Origin: a virus
Length of the DNA: 35,802 nt
Strand: one strand, 5' to 3'
IMG/VR virus record: IMGVR_UViG_3300009104_000060
Span: 1-35,802 of that record
Shown here: one piece after another, positions 11,147 through 35,802 of the stretch
Layout: the number at the start of each line of letters is the position of its first letter
Position numbering within the stretch: the first letter of the stretch is position 1
Translations under genes and position numbers: made by a program
The notes under the pieces: model-generated
Database searches by the model: none
What the model saw: only the letters and a program-made list of their open reading frames with translations
What the model was told of the DNA's origin: nothing

Positions 11147-11170
11147 TTCTGTTCTCCATAGTTGTAAGGT

Positions 11171-11238
11171 GGGGCCGTGTCAGCAGAAAGGGAGAAGGGA
11201 CCCTCTATCGAGGGGAGAGATGTGCCGACACGTGCCCC
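11171..11238 (-). promoter_or_regulatory. Strong hairpin in the late-operon leader
   Basis: An inverted repeat of 15-16 nt lies in the leader of the leftward late transcript: the left arm 11171-11185 (GGGGCCGTGTCAGCA) pairs with the right arm 11223-11238 (TGCCGACACGTGCCCC), with one bulged base and one G·U in RNA. Inside it is a second stem, CCCTC/GAGGG (11201-11205, 11210-11214). It has no U-tract, so it is not a simple terminator. Possible roles are RNA stabilisation, a put-like antitermination element, a protein-binding operator, or part of the packaging site next to terS. Confidence 0.6.
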
Positions 11239-11252
11239 GAATCTTTACTTAT

Positions 11253-11303: not shown

Positions 11304-11543
11304 ATTTAGCATATATTTTAGCATTCTTACACAATATTTTGCTAAATGGAACTAGATATAGATAAAGAAACAGATAAAGATATATTAATATTATATATAT
11401 AATATATATTATATAGAAGTATTAATATATATATTATAATAAGGGACCCACTTACCTGTGGATAACTTTCCAATTCCCCTTTATAATCATATATTTAACC
11501 TAATATTTACCTGTGGATAAGTCTGTGGATAACTTGTGGATAA
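11304..11543. other. Candidate replication origin: iteron-like repeats, AT-rich tract and DnaA boxes
   Basis: TTTAGCAT occurs at 11305-11312 and 11317-11324, with an inverted GCTAAAT at 11341-11347. These are followed by a nearly pure A/T tract (about 11378-11442) that would melt easily. Then TGTGGATAA, the exact complement of the DnaA box TTATCCACA, occurs at 11457-11465, 11512-11520, 11524-11532 and 11535-11543. All four have the same orientation, and the last three are spaced 11-12 bp apart, about one helical turn. Position between divergent operons fits an origin. Four perfect boxes in under 90 bp is far above chance. Confidence 0.7.
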
Positions 11544-11858
11544 AAATATACCCCCAAAAAAATTTTGGGACCCTATATTTGGCCGCTAAGCCAACGGCTA
11601 TCCCATTCCATATATACCAAAACACCCTATACAGAGATACACATACCATATACCACGTATACAGATACCAAACTCTTAGCAAAACGCTAGTGTGTTGTTA
11701 GTGTCGTTTTTTTATTTATATGTATGGGGCCAGGAAGCAGGATTCCTCAACCTGGATCGAACCCAACACCCCCTCGGAGTACCTTTCCATTCCACTTTTC
11801 TCAATATTCTGTAGCCCTTTCACCCTACCATAGCAGTTTAAACTTAGACTTGAAACGA

Positions 11859-11887
11859 TTGACGCGGTTTGACGTAGACCCTAGCAT
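11859..11887 (+). promoter_or_regulatory. Possible sigma70 promoter for the rightward early region
   Basis: TTGACG at 11859-11864 is followed 17 nt later by TAGCAT (11882-11887), giving a start near 11895. A second TTGACG lies 10 nt downstream (11869-11874) but has a poor -10 match. If active, the transcript would begin at the start of the structured G+C-richer segment and reach the first early gene at 12554, leaving a leader of about 650 nt. The -10 is only 4 of 6, so this is a modest candidate. Confidence 0.35.
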
Positions 11888-11894
11888 ATGAGAC

Positions 11895-12540
11895 TATACA
11901 TATACCGGCTCGCGGTGCAGGGGCCGGGAGGGGAAACCTCTAGAAAGGGTCGCACCCGACACTCCCCACGGCGTAGGGGATTGGTAAAGCGGTAACGTCG
12001 GCGCAGGTTGGTATCTGACGACATAGACCGTAGACCTCACAAGGTCATCGCCCCATAGAGTAGGTCGCTCAGATTGTTCTGGATAGTCTAACTATCTATT
12101 CCCTCGGACAACGTGCCTTTACTGGTGCAACGTCGATTTTCCACTTGGGATATCTGAGCAACGCACACCTTACGCTATAGTCTGTAGAGTATAGTGGAGA
12201 TGGGGATGCGATGGGCCAACATGGCGCGGGAAAATGGTGTCGAGCCACCGCGTACGTGGAGAGCGTGGCAGGTGCGTAGCCTGTCTGTGCAGAACAAGCA
12301 CAAGCGTAAGCGATTCTTAAATCATGGATGACGGGATACTGGAGAGTGCTCAAGCACGAGAACCCACCAATAACAACAAGTAACGGGGAAGTAAGGTATC
12401 TTGGAAGGAAATAACCGAAAGGCAAACGCGCAAGCACCACTACCAGTGGTTTCTGATCCCCCGCAAGGGCCAGGATAGTGGTCTCATTGGAAGGTGGTTT
12501 TGAGGGATTGTGCAATCACGCTCAATCCGTTCACTACTAT
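11895..12540 (+). ncRNA. Candidate structured RNA or long structured leader
   Basis: This stretch is visibly richer in G+C than its surroundings and dense in stem-loops. Examples are TCCCC/GGGGA (about 11962-11981) with GGGAG/CTCCC (11926-11930, 11962-11966) as an alternative, GACCT/AGGTC with a CACA loop (12033-12046), GTGC/GCAC with a UCAA loop (about 12347-12358), CCC/GGG with a GCAA tetraloop (12460-12469) inside ACCACTA/TAGTGGT (12436-12442, 12476-12482), and GGATTG/CAATCC at about 12505-12528. No frame looks coding. It could be a free phage ncRNA (size similar to large phage RNAs such as GOLLD or ROOL) or the 5' leader of the first early gene. Orientation is assumed from the upstream promoter. 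Confidence 0.4.
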
Positions 12541-12553
12541 GGAGAACAAGGCT

Positions 12554-13120
12554 ATGCCTACTCAAAACTACATTGTTGCTGACAAAACCGAAGCCAAGAA
12601 ACTCAACAATTCTGCTCGTAAGTCTTTGGAGACTGCATCAGAAACGATCCAACGTGCACTCGTAAACGGTGCGCGGTTCGTGAACGAGAAGGACAAAAAA
12701 GGCGAGAGCGTTGGGAATCTGGAGATTCTGTCGCACCTCATTCGACCGATGGGGGATACTCAAACACGCGGTATGATGGTGTCATGGGTCAAATCAAACA
12801 TCGGTGCGGTATGGGATGCCGAGAACGATGGTTTCAAGGGAAAGTGCAAGGAATTCCGCGCACTGGAGATCGACTGGAGCAATCCGGACGATCCCGAATT
12901 GAAGGCGTTGATCGGCAAGCGTTGGGATCACAAACGCGCTGAGGTGTCAAAAGCCAGCATCGACTTTGTCGCGGACCTTAAGCGAATCGCAAAGCGAATC
13001 GAAAAGAATCCCGATGTCGCCCAAAAGCAGTCGATTGAGGCCCAGTATGCTTGTCAGGCACTGTTTGAAGCCTTCAAGGCGAAGCAGTTGACTGTCGCAA
13101 AGGCCAAAAAAGCGGCTTAA
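12554..13120 (+). CDS. First early protein, unknown function (188 aa)
   Basis: The start ATG at 12554 has GGAGAA 9 nt upstream; a longer frame to 12494 lacks a ribosome site. The product has 188 residues, MPTQNYIVADKTEAKKLNNS..., mostly charged and helical, with RFVNEKDKKGESVGNLEILSHL, SDL-like acidic patches and a Lys/Ala-rich C-terminus (AKQLTVAKAKKAA). There is no membrane segment or known motif. Codon use and base composition are noticeably G+C-richer than in the following early genes, matching the upstream structured segment. It is probably expressed at high level early in infection. Nucleic-acid binding is possible from the basic tail. Confidence 0.75.
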   Translation: MPTQNYIVADKTEAKKLNNSARKSLETASETIQRALVNGARFVNEKDKKGESVGNLEILSHLIRPMGDTQTRGMMVSWVKSNIGAVWDAENDGFKGKCKEFRALEIDWSNPDDPELKALIGKRWDHKRAEVSKASIDFVADLKRIAKRIEKNPDVAQKQSIEAQYACQALFEAFKAKQLTVAKAKKAA

Positions 13121-13127
13121 AGCAAAC

Positions 13128-13153
13128 GGATTGTCCTCGAAAGAGGGCAATCC
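13128..13153 (+). other. Perfect GNRA-capped hairpin after the first early gene
   Basis: GGATTGTCCTC (13128-13138) pairs with GAGGGCAATCC (13143-13153) through 11 base pairs, including one U·G, closed by a GAAA tetraloop. It lies 8 nt after the stop of the first early gene. No U-run follows, so it is more likely an mRNA 3'-end stabiliser, processing site or protein-binding site than an intrinsic terminator. The outer GGATTG/CAATCC stem repeats that of the hairpin just before the same gene. Confidence 0.65.
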
Positions 13154-13182
13154 CTCAAACCCACCCACAAAACAGGAGATAA

Positions 13183-13401
13183 ATGACCTATCACAACAAA
13201 AAAGGCCCAGGTTCTACTGAAATAGGGACTGGCGTCGACATTTCTGGCGCGAAAATAACGCTACTTGCGCCTAGAAAATACAAGGATACCCGCGTTGTCA
13301 GGCTGAGTAAGCACAAGGGGTATCAGAAACCCACTCGCTTTGCTGTTACATCAGGCAAGGCAAGGGCAAGTTATCGCCCTGCTCGTAGAAAAGGAGGCTA
13401 A
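13183..13401 (+). CDS. Small basic early protein (72 aa)
   Basis: A 72-residue protein, MTYHNKKGPGSTEIGTGVDI..., rich in Lys, Arg and Gly, ending YRPARRKGG. GGAG stands 6 nt before the ATG. A beta-prone centre (AKITLLAPRKYKDTRVVRL) with a basic tail suggests a small nucleic-acid- or ribosome-binding protein, which is inference. It is the first of three consecutive genes that start MTY with similar ribosome-site/start sequences. No family is recognised. Confidence 0.65.
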   Translation: MTYHNKKGPGSTEIGTGVDISGAKITLLAPRKYKDTRVVRLSKHKGYQKPTRFAVTSGKARASYRPARRKGG

Positions 13402-13596
13402 ATGACGTATCCTAAAGTTTGTTGTGATTGTGGAGTTGTAGTGGATGAGTCTAATTTCTTTTCAAGAAAGAGCGGGGGTTATGTGTGTGATTCCTGCTTG
13501 AATAAAAGGGCGGAAACCAAGCCGGTAGTGTGTCCGGTTTGCGGTGGAGAGGATGAGCACACTTTTGGCTCTTTGTTATGTGAAATTGGAGGTTAA
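13402..13596 (+). CDS. Small zinc-ribbon protein (64 aa)
   Basis: A 64-residue protein with three CxxC pairs: CCDCG (residues 7-11), CDSC (29-32) and CPVC (44-47). The first two pairs, about 20 residues apart, make a classical zinc ribbon; the third is separate. The ATG follows the previous stop directly (TAAATG), with GGAGG as the ribosome site. Small early zinc ribbons in phages often bind host proteins or nucleic acid, but no partner can be read from the sequence. Confidence 0.7.
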   Translation: MTYPKVCCDCGVVVDESNFFSRKSGGYVCDSCLNKRAETKPVVCPVCGGEDEHTFGSLLCEIGG

Positions 13597-13597
13597 T

Positions 13598-13945
13598 ATG
13601 ACGTACTATGAACCTCACCCTGCTCATGTGTTGGCGGGTGATGCTATTTTTGAGTCTCGTGCGAAGATAATTCGCAAGTTGTTTGACGAGGATGACTACT
13701 GTAAAAGGTGGGATTTAGCCCACGAATTAGTGGGCAAATACACTAAGCGTGAGGTCTATGCACTGGCGGATAAGTTGGATATAGGGGCAAATTCTCCTGA
13801 TCTTAGGGTAATGTGCTCAGATTTGACTGATTTTATTGCTCATCATTGCGTAACTGGGTGGGCCATAGAGGATATGTTGGCTAACCCTGCTAGTAGACTC
13901 CCGACTAGCGATGTGTGGGGTACTGAATTGTATCCCAAATGGTGA
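13598..13945 (+). CDS. Early protein, unknown function (115 aa)
   Basis: The start at 13598 is chosen because GGAGG lies 5-6 nt upstream and the ATG follows the previous stop; a frame extension to 13544 overlaps the zinc-ribbon gene without a ribosome site. The 115-residue product, MTYYEPHPAHVLAGDAIFES..., is helical and acidic, with KYTKREVYALADKLDIG and CSDLTDFIAHHCVTGWAIEDML. It has no membrane segment or catalytic signature. The ending, TSDVWGTELYPKW, is compact. It is a host-takeover-region protein by position only. Confidence 0.65.
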   Translation: MTYYEPHPAHVLAGDAIFESRAKIIRKLFDEDDYCKRWDLAHELVGKYTKREVYALADKLDIGANSPDLRVMCSDLTDFIAHHCVTGWAIEDMLANPASRLPTSDVWGTELYPKW

Positions 13946-14086
13946 CCTAGCATCCGGGGTACTCAGGGTAGGCCTGGGTGCTGAGGTGACATGGCTTACC
14001 CACTAGGGTGGTATAGGGTCTTGTCTTAACGGCTCTCAGAGGGGCTTACAGAGCGTCTCAGGGGCATAAACTGGAGGTGTTGTGCT
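13946..14086 (+). other. Short intergenic leader with hairpins
   Basis: A 141-nt gap, unusually long for this block. It contains CTCAGG/CCTGAG-type pairing within the G-rich start, ACCC(ACTA)GGGT at about 13998-14009, and repeated CTCAGAGGGG/CTCAGGGGC strings. A tiny frame (MAYPLGWYRVLS, 13991-14029) has a weak GAGGTG site before it and could be a leader peptide, but 12 codons prove nothing. GGAGGT at 14073-14078 serves the next gene. Confidence 0.4.
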
Positions 14087-29962: not shown

Positions 29963-30222
29963 TTCCTATCCCCCCCTTTAATTAGGGGGGATATTTTTTT
30001 TATACATCCAGGAGGGATAACAGTAAACCCAAACCACTCGCCCTTCTCATCTTTGGTAGTTGCTATACGTACTTCATCATCATTATTATTAATTAAATAT
30101 CCATATGACCAGAAGGTTGGCAACTTAGTATCTTCATACCTTTCCCATCCGGCAGTAGAAATTATATCCTGCCATTCAACTTCAACATAATCTATTGCAG
30201 GGCCTGAGCTTTTTCTGCCCAT
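29920..30222 (-). CDS. Conserved phage protein, unknown (100 aa)
   Basis: A 100-residue protein. VEWQDIISTAGWERYEDTKL (residues 14-33), PTFWSYGYLINNNDDEVRIA (34-53) and GEWFGFTVIPPGCIKKI (61-77) follow a pattern shared by many small phage proteins: a W-containing start, a C-T-x-GxL strand and a final FPxGCVxxI. The C-terminal 20 residues are basic. It follows the giant protein on the same strand, overlapping its stop. The terminator of the opposing transcript lies in its last codons. Confidence 0.7.
   Translation of the reverse strand: MGRKSSGPAIDYVEVEWQDIISTAGWERYEDTKLPTFWSYGYLINNNDDEVRIATTKDEKGEWFGFTVIPPGCIKKISPLIKGGDRNQLKRKTIKPASKI
29967..30001 (+). terminator. Strong intrinsic terminator at the convergent junction
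   Basis: TATCCCCCC (29967-29975) pairs with GGGGGGATA (29985-29993) over 9 bp around a loop CTTTAATTA. It is followed by eight T residues (29994-30001), so it terminates the rightward early transcript. No T-run follows on the other strand, so it should not stop the leftward genes efficiently. Confidence 0.9.
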
Positions 30223-33200
30223 TCCATTATCTCCAAATATTTTTGTGTAGCAAATTTATTATACTCATCATATAACTCTTGTCTTTTTTCTTCTGTTAGA
30301 TTTGGATCAGACATAACTTTCTCTGCTCTTTTCATAATATCAGTAAGTTCTTTTTGAGTCCAATACGCTTTATTCTGCATCTCGTAATCACCTATCTTTA
30401 TGGTATTTATACCAAACCAAGATAGCCACGCATCAAGCTCACCATACTTTGTAAATCCATCCTTACCTATATTACCCTCAATAATATCATAAGCATACAT
30501 GGTTTTCCACAGAGGACCTCCTCCTGATGCAATATCCCCCGCTCTATTTCTTGGCATAAGCATCGGCGGTATCATGTACGATGCCATAAACATCATAATA
30601 TCCTGGGCCTGCTGATGAGGTGTATCGTTCTCATTCCATACAGGCTGACCAGTAAATGGATCGACATTCTGCAATCCACCTAGCAACCCTTGAACAGGAC
30701 CTCCTAACACGCCAATAGTTTTTACAGCTTCTCCGATTTCTAGATTTGCTAAGTCCCTAGCGACAGAGAAATGAGCGCCCCAAGGCAAGAAGTAACTCAT
30801 ATCAAATGCCACCCACTTACCATTGTCATCTTTGTATGGCAAGAAGAAAACATTACCATTATTTTCTGCATACTCTGGAAGGAATGCCTTTAATGCTTCA
30901 ACATCTTCTTCATCAAGCTCATCAAACTGAGACATTAATACTTCTGCCATAACAAATGGAAGTGCTAAGTATTTTCCTGTAGCAATAGGATGCTTCTTAA
31001 CATTCCTAATCATTTGAGTTAAAGCTTTAGCATTAAACGTAATGAAGGGGGAGCCAAGAGGCATGGAGCGCAAGGTTCTTATTAAGGGAGACACGTTGCT
31101 ATAGTCTAGCAATGCCTCGTTTGCCTCCATAGCAGCGTCTGATTCATTGTATCCTTGGTTCTCCATAAGGTCTATAATCTTAGCAATCTTAAATAACACT
31201 TCCGTCTTTTGATACAGCCTACCAAATACGTTCGCATTATCCATAAAGATTTTTAGCTTTGACCAGGTCTGCATCCCAGCAATATCTTTAGTTGCTTTAG
31301 CGAACTCTTTGTCTATTCTTCCAAGCTCTTCAGATGCAAAAGTAGTTTGTTCAATACCATACTTCCTTGCTATCTGCATATACTTTCCGTTATTAACAAT
31401 GTTATCCATCGCATTATTAAGAACACTTGGTATCCTCCAGATAGGAACTCCAGAAGCATTTAAGAAAATAGTATTAGATATAGCGTTTCTTGCCTGAGCA
31501 GGAACCTGCATTGGAACGTGTGTATATTTAAATGCTTTTTGAACTCTGGTAAATAAATGTAGTATTGAATTCAACACTTCATTCTGAGACGAGATTGCTC
31601 CCTGCTGAGTTATATCATCCCAAATAATCTTATCTACCCACAGACCTTGCATCCCGCCGTAACGCACAGACTTAGGAATACGCTTGTACTTCCTTGTGTC
31701 AGCATTCTTTATCTCTGGATACTTGGCAATTACCTTGTCAATCTTATTGGCAAATGCTTCCTGCTTTTTAGCATCATCAATCTGACCTCCCTCTCTCAGT
31801 ATAGCAGCCCTCTGACGTATCTCTCCAGAAAGATTCTTAAAGTATACTGTCGTACCTGATACACCATCTATCTCTACTACCTGATTAGGAAGAACCCAGC
31901 CAACATTAGCTGGATCACTTGCTATGTAGTTTAAGTAGTTGATGGTAGCTAAGTCGCTACCTACCATAGAGATATATCTTGAAGCAAGATAAGCAGGGTC
32001 TTTTATTCTACCTGATACCAGGTCCTCAATAAAAGATTCCTCGTCTTTTCTGGCTCTGGTATAGCCCATGCTTCCCGGCATGTACCCTGTTCCTAACCTA
32101 TCCTGCCCACTCTGAACGTACTTCAAGTAAACTCTAGGCAAGTACTGCCCTTTCAATTCCTCATATTGCTCTTCCTTTAAGACGCCAGCATCTACAGCAT
32201 CCTGACCAAGCCTTTCGATTTGATCTTTAGCCTTTACTGCGGCCTCTCTTATGGTCATTGTCGATTGATTTTTAGGCCCAGGTTTAGTGCCGCGCAACAC
32301 GGATTCGAACGGAGCGTACTCAATCTTCCTGTTCGGAAGCGCATCAGGACTTGCTCCTCGGGTCTCAAAGAATTTAGTTAGAGCTTCCTTCTCTTTCTTT
32401 CCTTTGACGTTAGCTAGCACATCATGCAGAATCCTGCCGAAGTTATGAGCCTCTTCTTTCTTACCTTTCATAAGCATGGCTTGCTTTTCAAGAAGCCTAT
32501 ACCCTTCAAGGGTCATCTTAGGTTCGATGTATTTCTGGATCATCTTGAATCCAGACAAGAGAGAGCTTCTACCTTTCTCAGCCCACTGAGTATTCTCTAC
32601 CACTTCCTTGGTTATGCGCCTACCTCTGCTTTCAGATATTGCAGGCTGTCCTTCTCTAAACCCAAGCGAAGTAGCATTCTTAAATTGCCCATCTTCAAGA
32701 AGGATATATCCTGTAGAAAATACGTCTTCATACATATTAGTATACTTAATAGAATCATACCCAGCATCTAATATAGCTTTTCTAATTTCACTAGCAAAAG
32801 TAGTTCTTCCTACCTCTTGTTCCTTGCCGTAAATTTTTAGTACTTTCTTTGTATCAGTCCAGTCTGTTATTATATTTAATATCCTCTCCCCAAGAGGACC
32901 ATCTAAACCATCATGGAATAATAGGTCTTGATCTTCTATAGCATTCCTCCAAGCGACAGGGATATTCCACTTCCCAACATCAGGCAACTCTAAAGGATTT
33001 TTTATTTTTATATACCCGGCATATGGAACAGGCTTTGGCGCACCTGATTTTACTGCCGCTACAGCCGCAGCTTCTAACGTTCCCACTTGTAAACCGATCT
33101 CAGTCTTCTCAATAACTGGAGCAGTCCAAGCAAAAGGACTTGCATGCCATACCTTATCCTTCACTAAAGAATCTTTTAGGAATTCATATTTCTTTTTGCT

Positions 33201-35802
33201 TGAGTACCTTTGGCGTAGCTTATCATTATCCGGGTCTCTTAATGCTTCAGAAGGAACCTTACCTACAGCGTACTGGATAAGACTTGTTATATCATTTACG
33301 TCTACTTCAGGTTCCGCATTAGTATCAAAAGGCTTAGTGATCTTTTTAAAGAAGTTAACAAATGCCTTGGTAATTCTATCCCAAAGAGTCGGTTTGATAT
33401 CTGCTGCTTTGAACTGTATTACATGAGCAAGAACCTCTTCCCATAACACACTGTTTTTTTCATGCCTTACATACGTACCATCTGACTTCTTTACAGCAGG
33501 AGGGCCTATAACAGGAGGATACTTTCTATTCTTGGTATAGTTTAAGATAACTTGATTAACAGCTTCCTGCACTACCTCATCCCCATCCCTGTTTAACTTG
33601 TACAGTTGGTCAAGGATTTGATCGAACTCTCTGCCAGAGAATATACGCTTGCCGTAGTGCACACCAATCTCATGCAAGATAAGACCTCTAGCATCGTTGG
33701 TATTATTGGCAATGTTATCAGAGATAAAGATTATCTTTGCATCTGTCTCATCTACAAAGGCATTCGTTTCTGTTGAGATTTTCTTGTATCTATTTGAAAG
33801 ATTTCTAACTTCAGCAAGGGTTAGTATTTTAATAAACCCTGTCTCCATCATACGCCTTGTTGCCTTCTTTCCCCAGATACTATTCATCTGAGATAGCAAA
33901 GCATTGCTTGCCTGTATTGGAGAATCAAATCCTTTAACGGGATTCCTTGATCTTGATTCTTTTATATCATCCCAACCAAGATCGTAATCTTCTCTTAGCC
34001 CACGTAGATCAGCAGAACGGATCGTCGAAGGGTCCTCTTTTACTTTAGCAAGTAAAAAGTCACGCTCATCTGTAATGGATGGTATATCTTCAGCAACAGC
34101 TTCTTCAGTTGCCCACTCAAGTATCTGAGCAGCAAATTCTTTTTTGGTTTTGTGTGATTTGAATTGGAAGGAATCTTCCTGAGACGCTATTGCTTTAGCT
34201 AGCTCCCTTAGATCAGAGAGCGACATGCCCCCTTTAGCCGGGGTGTTATTGAGTATCTCTGCTACAACATCAGTTTCTTCAGCCTCTACTAAATCCCTAA
34301 GTACGATGTAGTCTTCTTTTATTTGACCAACAAGATTAGCCCTTTCATCTACAGATTCTTCTTCTGTTTCTTCTAGGGTTTCAACTAATTCTTGACGGCT
34401 CTCTGATTCAAGAGCATCAGTATCAAAATCATAATCATTTGGGTCTTTAGCAAACACAAATACATCTGACCCAATAATGTTCTCAGCTTTGATAGCATCT
34501 GATTTTGTAAGCCAATCCCCCTCATGACCAAGCCTATCTAATGGCGAACCTCCCTCGTCAATATCCCAAGAACCATCATCAGCAAACGAAACAATAGAAA
34601 TTTTCCCTGTTTCATGGGCCTCGTAAAACTCCCACTCCATATGAGAGCCCCATCTTGTTGCATCTTTTAAGTTATTAAATGCATAGATATTTCCAGGAGT
34701 ACCAAGTCGCTTATCGCCTTCTCGTGTAACCCAATTAGACAGCATCTTCTTGCCACCAAATGGAAGTATACCCTCTTCTTTAAGGGCCTCCACATTTTCT
34801 GTAAGAGTCACATGGTATAAAACATCTTCAGCAAGTAATTCCTGGTACTCAGGTAATGTGCCTATTTTCTCTCTTTCAGAATCTTTTTCCTGCACATAAG
34901 CGGTAGCTTCTTTTAAGGTAGGTAGAGTAACATCCCATTCCCAGTTATGATCGTCATAATAATCAGGGTCTTCTACCTTAGAGATGTATACTTTCCATTC
35001 GCCTGCTTCAGTCTTTGATGCTTTGTACCTTACGCCATCCTCTGTAGTAAGCTCATACTCACCATTAGATACTTTATTGGTCGTTACTTTTTTTTTTAAA
35101 TCGTCGTAAGCTGCTGCTTGAGCATCTATACCTTGAGCATCTTCTGCTTCAGCTGCTCTGGTTTCTTGTACTTGATCTAATGCATCCATGCCTGACGCTT
35201 CAAGAACGCCACGATCTTCTAGTATATCAATCCATTCATTCAAGGCTTCGGTTGAAGACTTAGGCATTGCAACTCTAACTGCTTCTTGCTTTAAAGCTTT
35301 CCTCTGTTTCTTTAGGTCATTAAGGGTTGCTACTTCTCCAGAAGTTTTTTCCTTTCCTTCAAGTCTTGCTATTTCTTTTTCAAGAGCAGCATTTCTAGCG
35401 CCAAATTCTTTTGCAGTTTCATCTCTTACCGCAATGAGATCAATCTTTTTATTCTTTGCTTGCTCAGTAAGGAACTCAAGAAACAGTGGCGATTCAGAGC
35501 GAATAGAGTCTGCAATTATCTGAGCTTGATCTACATTAGGAACGCTAAATAAAACAATCTCCCCATCTCTGCCTGGATAAGTAACGGAGATATCGTACCC
35601 TTCTGAATCCTCAGCTTTTGATAGTTCATAGTTACCTTTAATTTCAACATTAGGCTTGCTAGCAGCCGATGTCTTTTTAGGGGCTACCCATTCTGACCAT
35701 GCAAAGTTAAAAGGTGAAAGCGGTTTAGGCTGTCTTGCTTTTGGTGCTTGCTTAGCTGCTTCTCTTTTGACTCTAGCTTGCGCTTCTATATCTTTCTTGC
35801 CA
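30192..35802 (-). CDS. Giant polyvalent virion protein (partial; open at right edge)
   Basis: The reading frame has no stop from the window edge to 30192, so the protein is at least 1869 residues and its N-terminus is missing; the Met at 35267 is internal. Counting from the edge: a coiled-coil-like region (about 80-240); an ART-like domain with YHVTLTENVEALKEEGILP and YAFNNLKDATRWG (about 328-400); a zincin HEIGVH (710-715) with a downstream EEVLAHVIQ (about 788); a second ART-PolyVal-like domain with KVWHASPF, AGYDSIKYTN (about 883-1043); and a long helical C-terminus of LPD38 style. Such polyvalent proteins are packaged and injected with DNA to modify the host. Structural genes probably continue past the edge. 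Confidence 0.82.
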   Translation of the reverse strand, partial: GKKDIEAQARVKREAAKQAPKARQPKPLSPFNFAWSEWVAPKKTSAASKPNVEIKGNYELSKAEDSEGYDISVTYPGRDGEIVLFSVPNVDQAQIIADSIRSESPLFLEFLTEQAKNKKIDLIAVRDETAKEFGARNAALEKEIARLEGKEKTSGEVATLNDLKKQRKALKQEAVRVAMPKSSTEALNEWIDILEDRGVLEASGMDALDQVQETRAAEAEDAQGIDAQAAAYDDLKKKVTTNKVSNGEYELTTEDGVRYKASKTEAGEWKVYISKVEDPDYYDDHNWEWDVTLPTLKEATAYVQEKDSEREKIGTLPEYQELLAEDVLYHVTLTENVEALKEEGILPFGGKKMLSNWVTREGDKRLGTPGNIYAFNNLKDATRWGSHMEWEFYEAHETGKISIVSFADDGSWDIDEGGSPLDRLGHEGDWLTKSDAIKAENIIGSDVFVFAKDPNDYDFDTDALESESRQELVETLEETEEESVDERANLVGQIKEDYIVLRDLVEAEETDVVAEILNNTPAKGGMSLSDLRELAKAIASQEDSFQFKSHKTKKEFAAQILEWATEEAVAEDIPSITDERDFLLAKVKEDPSTIRSADLRGLREDYDLGWDDIKESRSRNPVKGFDSPIQASNALLSQMNSIWGKKATRRMMETGFIKILTLAEVRNLSNRYKKISTETNAFVDETDAKIIFISDNIANNTNDARGLILHEIGVHYGKRIFSGREFDQILDQLYKLNRDGDEVVQEAVNQVILNYTKNRKYPPVIGPPAVKKSDGTYVRHEKNSVLWEEVLAHVIQFKAADIKPTLWDRITKAFVNFFKKITKPFDTNAEPEVDVNDITSLIQYAVGKVPSEALRDPDNDKLRQRYSSKKKYEFLKDSLVKDKVWHASPFAWTAPVIEKTEIGLQVGTLEAAAVAAVKSGAPKPVPYAGYIKIKNPLELPDVGKWNIPVAWRNAIEDQDLLFHDGLDGPLGERILNIITDWTDTKKVLKIYGKEQEVGRTTFASEIRKAILDAGYDSIKYTNMYEDVFSTGYILLEDGQFKNATSLGFREGQPAISESRGRRITKEVVENTQWAEKGRSSLLSGFKMIQKYIEPKMTLEGYRLLEKQAMLMKGKKEEAHNFGRILHDVLANVKGKKEKEALTKFFETRGASPDALPNRKIEYAPFESVLRGTKPGPKNQSTMTIREAAVKAKDQIERLGQDAVDAGVLKEEQYEELKGQYLPRVYLKYVQSGQDRLGTGYMPGSMGYTRARKDEESFIEDLVSGRIKDPAYLASRYISMVGSDLATINYLNYIASDPANVGWVLPNQVVEIDGVSGTTVYFKNLSGEIRQRAAILREGGQIDDAKKQEAFANKIDKVIAKYPEIKNADTRKYKRIPKSVRYGGMQGLWVDKIIWDDITQQGAISSQNEVLNSILHLFTRVQKAFKYTHVPMQVPAQARNAISNTIFLNASGVPIWRIPSVLNNAMDNIVNNGKYMQIARKYGIEQTTFASEELGRIDKEFAKATKDIAGMQTWSKLKIFMDNANVFGRLYQKTEVLFKIAKIIDLMENQGYNESDAAMEANEALLDYSNVSPLIRTLRSMPLGSPFITFNAKALTQMIRNVKKHPIATGKYLALPFVMAEVLMSQFDELDEEDVEALKAFLPEYAENNGNVFFLPYKDDNGKWVAFDMSYFLPWGAHFSVARDLANLEIGEAVKTIGVLGGPVQGLLGGLQNVDPFTGQPVWNENDTPHQQAQDIMMFMASYMIPPMLMPRNRAGDIASGGGPLWKTMYAYDIIEGNIGKDGFTKYGELDAWLSWFGINTIKIGDYEMQNKAYWTQKELTDIMKRAEKVMSDPNLTEEKRQELYDEYNKFATQKYLEIMEWAEKAQALQ

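Follow-up and report, generated by a model that had tools for sequence, protein, structure and literature searches.

Neither long structured leaders nor early transcripts processed by RNase III are new kinds of RNA, and the duplexes that RNase III cuts, as in rRNA stalks and the early-gene processing sites of T7, are near-perfect helices of ~20 bp. The put-like elements, which modify host RNA polymerase, are about 70 nt long. Annotations of early podophage transcripts usually list nothing but genes, and comparison now shows that a leader of 400-650 nt stands before or near a gene of the phrog_1448 family in many phages. Among the phages inspected, such a leader usually lies ahead of the early genes, often immediately in front of phrog_1448. 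This family is an early gene in Autographiviridae and Zobellviridae-like phages (phiKMV ORF3, PP2_002, GAP227_02 and others). Among Autographiviridae, a non-coding stretch of ~400-650 nt with host-type promoters precedes phrog_1448 directly in the Melnykvirinae, and in phiKMV and IME271 the leader precedes one or two small genes and then phrog_1448. A literature search that took in few subscription papers returned no description of such a leader or of the conserved core that we report below. Within the literature searched, neither a covarying stalk that surrounds an entire protein gene nor a pseudoknot-bearing class of Autographiviridae leaders appears to have been described.

The sequence studied here is a 35.8-kb IMG/VR virus record (IMGVR_UViG_3300009104_000060), all 35,802 nt of which we call the window. 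The virus is podophage-like, with divergent operons: terminase and structural genes lie to the left on the minus strand, early and replication genes to the right on the plus strand, and between them an A/T-rich stretch with DnaA-box-like repeats is followed by the segment of interest, 11895-12540. Several of these repeats (TGTGGATAA) are found in the A/T-rich stretch at 11400-11560, near the cumulative GC-skew minimum, and are kept in relatives; this stretch is a possible replication origin. At its start, the left operon has a conserved element (11167-11240, minus strand) that reads GGGGCacGUGUC...GACACgGCCCC with an inner CCCTCgatAGAGGG hairpin, and an identical 22-mer is found in six relatives. 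Just 5' of the leader promoter, a conserved element at 11726-11785 has a tRNA T-arm-like stretch, GGTTCGATCC, on the minus strand and in relatives forms a hairpin around CAGGATTCC..CCTGGATCG; ARAGORN finds no tRNA there. A candidate IS605-orfB-I RNA at 11579-11728 (minus strand) was rejected, its score being 17.8 bits against the 94.2 required (E 0.58). Far to the right, a 1691-aa reading frame at 30192-35267 (minus strand) has no PHROG match.

A sequence-only reading had described 11895-12540 as a G+C-rich, stem-loop-dense segment without a plausible gene. It is indeed G+C-rich (52.6% against 41.7% for the whole window, with 0.3% of 646-nt windows equally so), but the contrast claimed with A/T-rich flanks holds on the left only (34% G+C) and is one-sided, because the right flank, a gene, also has 50.5% G+C. 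The longest open frame has 139 codons and lies on the minus strand (12096-12515); frames as long arise in 18 of 300 shuffles, and we rejected it as a gene on account of its near-chance length and its lack of any family or PHROG match. In agreement with the earlier claim, the segment most likely makes no protein. The promoter proposed at its left end, TTGACG-N17-TAGCAT, is present and is the sole promoter-like site in the region, but the match is no better than chance, with 1.9 such sites expected. Transcription from it would begin near 11893-11896. In Autographiviridae, annotated host-type promoters are found at the equivalent place. The coordinates of the features are collected in Table 1.

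Table 1. Features of the putative early leader and of the gene and helix that follow it in the window.
Feature	Position	Strand	Basis
Sigma70-like promoter TTGACG-N17-TAGCAT (putative)	11859..11887	+	9/12 consensus matches
Structured non-coding leader RNA, about 600 nt	11895..12492	+	No coding frame; equivalent leaders elsewhere; covarying helices in L008/L048/L052 leaders
Hairpin GACCT-CACA-AGGTC	12033..12046	+	Sequence
Hairpin ACCACTA/TAGTGGT closing inner CCC-GCAA-GGG	12436..12482	+	Sequence and minimum-energy fold
Stalk 5' arm GGTGGTTTTGAGGGATTGT	12493..12511	+	Duplex -29.1 kcal/mol
Alternative local hairpin competing with stalk (predicted)	12493..12538	+	-17.8 kcal/mol; equivalents in L003, L006, L008, L048, L052
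phrog_1448-family early protein of unknown function, 188 aa	12554..13120	+	GGAG 9 nt upstream of probable start
Downstream hairpin GGATTGTCCTC-GAAA-GAGGGCAATCC directly after stop codon	13128..13153	+	Equivalents post-stop in all relatives tested
Stalk 3' arm GCAATCCCTCAAACCCACC	13147..13165	+	Pairs with 12493..12511 around phrog_1448 gene

The individual stems singled out by eye are real as sequence: the CACA-looped stem is present, and the GCAA tetraloop (12460-12469) sits within the ACCACTA/TAGTGGT helix, whose arms at 12436-12442 and 12476-12482 give the claimed 7-bp closure. The claim of unusual stem density was not confirmed beyond chance. The whole-fold z-score of the plus strand is -0.35 or -1.35, and the mean local z-score of the segment, -0.5, equals the value in coding regions. 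Short stems are in mild excess (11 against 6.0 in shuffles, 14/300), an excess similar to that in the coding regions of the window. Since the plus strand folds no better than shuffled sequence, stem density judged by eye cannot serve as evidence alone. Folding-energy z-scores, both whole-segment and sliding, are at chance here and are uninformative also for leaders that have covariation support. The proposal of a structured phage RNA thus gains nothing from folding energy and draws its support from comparison with relatives.

Eight IMG/VR loci share the neighbouring ATPase gene (75-95% protein identity). In the relatives that reach the region, the DNA can be aligned with that of the window as far as about 11787 and, for most, once more from about 13956, these flanks being mostly 80-93% identical. 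The intervening 11788-13955 is largely unalignable, and its layout is the same: a non-coding leader, a phrog_1448-family gene, and short genes or a non-coding stretch. The phrog_1448 proteins of the relatives are only 25-26% identical to that of the window, and because this lies far below the flanks, the leader and the gene look like a cassette, fast-evolving or exchanged as a unit. Protein searches of viral and genome contigs found no close relatives of the window's own phrog_1448 protein or of its next gene. The phrog_1448 gene of the window probably starts at 12554, where the spacing of the GGAG matches the arrangement in relatives; an in-frame ATG is also found at 12539. An AlphaFold model of the protein is all-helical and of low confidence (pLDDT 51). 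In two relatives (L006 4835-5215 and L003 5624-6253), a further non-coding stretch of ~700 nt after the phrog_1448 gene contains repeated hairpins with the loop CUGAGUAU (GUCCUGAGUAUGAC), several of them followed by (T)AAACTGCTC, whose stems covary by eye.

No alignable homologue of window 11895-12492 was found, either in a DNA search against phages or by alignment with the leaders of L008, L048 and L052, and for this reason no helix within it is backed by covariation. The leaders of L008, L048/L050 and L052/L053 are alignable with one another over some 600 nt, and RNAalifold places 124 pairs in them, 31 with compensatory changes. In nine selected helices of the L008/L048/L052 leaders, 18 of 55 pairs are changed on both sides and 96% of cells are paired (0/500 shuffles), a count inflated because the helices were themselves chosen from a structure predicted on these few sequences. 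Sliding the partner strand gave 0-2 double-sided changes, far below 18.

The same clade shares a long-range helix of 18-23 bp that encloses the phrog_1448 gene in all six members tested (the window, L003, L006, L008, L048 and L052). Its arms lie 27-38 nt 5' of the annotated start, or 42 nt in the window if the gene begins at 12554, and 23-26 nt 3' of the stop. The RNA feature of the window accordingly reaches ~12511, with a partner arm at 13147-13165. In each of the six loci the complementarity score was reached by 0 of 300 shuffles. The sequence of the arms varies among lineages and complementarity is kept; when the arms, picked for complementarity, are aligned, 7 of 13 pairs are changed on both sides and none is broken. 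The strongest evidence for the stalk is its constant location together with the fresh cases L048 and L052, which were fetched after the pattern had been noticed. The minimum-energy folds of five of the six loci contain the stalk, and that of the window does not. Because each arm also pairs in a local hairpin, stalk and local hairpins are mutually exclusive. A group I or group II intron with an internal ORF was considered owing to the stalk and rejected, there being no match to an Rfam intron model; that only 17 nt separate the 3' arm from the next gene speaks further against it.

Outside the clade, phages with annotated early promoters also have a non-coding leader at the place equivalent to that of the window, and for Autographiviridae we modelled an 88-nt core from nine leaders (models R1-R3). 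It consists of an H-type pseudoknot (strand a, GCUGA, P1, strand b, an A-rich loop, UGAGC) followed by hairpins P2 and P3, and 12 of its 19 pairs are changed on both sides (0/500 shuffles). The model matched leaders outside its build set at the expected place, those of IME271 (3.5e-11), SeaP1, LKD16, phiKMV, ISAO8, Vib526, SnaP-R1 and Kc318, and after one round also those of GAP227 and EspYZU13; with a later model the IME271 match reached an E of about 1e-17. Six whole phage genomes were each matched once, in the leader. The core loci are L017, L018, L020, L023, L025-L030 and L032-L039, comprising Autographiviridae leaders and that of Vibrio phage IME271. Models R1-R3 gave no significant match in the window or in the leaders of L003, L006, L008 and L048-L053, and none in VpV262 or PA11; a scan of the window with a hand-made pseudoknot descriptor gave no convincing candidate. 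The window leader is nonetheless the positional equivalent of the Autographiviridae early leaders, lying between a promoter, here a consensus match only, and early genes that include phrog_1448.

By sequence comparison, then, the non-coding status of the segment, the conserved position of the leader, the covarying stalk and the covarying helices of the clade leaders are supported. Among the three identities that had been left open (a member of GOLLD or ROOL, a new class, or a long leader), the long leader fares best, since relatives and characterised phages hold a promoter-proximal non-coding early leader at the same position. We regard the segment as the 5' leader of a phage early transcript, comprising a sigma70-type leader RNA and an rRNA-like stalk around the first gene, with a probability of about 0.6. 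Host RNA polymerase would probably start at the sigma70-type promoter and make a structured non-coding RNA of about 600 nt before transcribing the phrog_1448-family gene, the first of the early genes, around which a stalk of about 18 bp would close. Cutting of the stalk by RNase III, or another double-strand-specific step, would release the leader RNA and a one-gene message. A covarying flanking duplex of ~20 bp, as expected of an RNase III-processed early leader, is present. Exchange between stalk and local hairpins could also serve as a switch that turns on processing or decay once transcription and translation of the gene have taken place. By analogy with known duplexes of this kind, the stalk probably serves in processing by RNase III or as a switch. 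We propose only tentatively, and with some doubt, that Autographiviridae and Zobellviridae-like podophages share a single, widespread and undescribed class of early-leader RNA, to which the window leader would belong as a far-diverged member. In this view the class has kept its position ahead of the early genes while its sequence turned over almost completely, and in this clade it is joined to a bistable stalk that surrounds the first early gene.

Several of these observations could be read otherwise. The leader might be a separate, large non-coding RNA that acts in trans, for instance through a host factor that it binds, with the stalk merely trimming it from the message. Its length near 600 nt would suit this, as would the Autographiviridae leaders, which have turned over almost all of their sequence and yet kept a structured core, present once per genome where found. 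Moreover, the leader is not tied to one message, because one or two short genes can intervene before phrog_1448. We nevertheless consider action in trans unlikely, as a location between early promoter and early genes suits a cis role and a scan of the region found no terminator-like site after the leader. A cis role of another sort, modification of host RNA polymerase for read-through of the early region (antitermination, like the HK022 put RNAs), would fit a promoter-proximal location where the early transcription unit begins, seen in two phage families, and the compact fold with a pseudoknot core in Autographiviridae; put-like elements are, however, far shorter than the 500-650 nt seen here, and we hold this to be quite improbable.

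The segment might also be no functional RNA at all, but a spacer or genome-terminus region that evolves fast and is maintained for its role as DNA, for example as an origin or in packaging. The adjoining A/T-rich region has its DnaA-box-like repeats at the GC-skew minimum, the terminal repeat of VpV262 sits just before the VpV262 leader, the leader, or the point just before it, is where the L014 and L015 contigs stop, and folding energy is at chance level. Against this stand the covariation of the stalk and of the leader helices in the clade and the covarying core in the equivalent Autographiviridae leaders, in view of which we judge a mere spacer very unlikely. The suggestion that the segment belongs to GOLLD or ROOL, which had size and phage setting in its favour, is refuted at the level of the Rfam 15 models: at the gathering score and at E<=10 the window contains no match to these covariance models or to any other family, and no tRNA or tmRNA was found in it, near the segment or elsewhere. 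Its probability is practically negligible. Rfam likewise gave no match in the leaders of relatives and Autographiviridae that were searched (L026-L039 lay outside the scan).

In comparison with known systems, GOLLD and ROOL resemble the window segment as large RNAs in phage genomes and differ from it in their covariance models, their tRNA context and its early-leader position. The Autographiviridae leaders (phiKMV, LKD16, Pectobacterium PP2, Cronobacter GAP227, Aeromonas Atoyac23 and others) are like that of the window in their ~400-650 nt, their upstream host-type promoter and the phrog_1448 gene downstream; they carry the pseudoknot core, whereas the window and its clade match no core model, and the ORF-spanning stalk of the clade is at chance level in those Autographiviridae tested. 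The Zobellviridae VpV262 and PA11 and the unclassified Vibrio phage IME271 share with the window an early region that diverges from the terminase genes on the opposite strand, and a long non-coding stretch ahead of the early genes; IME271 has the Autographiviridae-type core, which was not detected in VpV262, PA11 or the window. The carriers of an early leader include such model phages as phiKMV, and Rfam 15 has no entry for its core. Should the leader govern processing or host functions as infection begins, culturable phages would allow a direct test. A covarying helix that encloses an entire protein-coding gene is unusual and likewise directly testable. The RNase III stalks of rRNA and the RNase III sites of T7 early genes resemble the window stalk in being long duplexes that flank a unit of a polycistronic transcript; the T7 sites are local hairpins, whereas the arms in the window stand on either side of one protein-coding gene, where cleavage is predicted.
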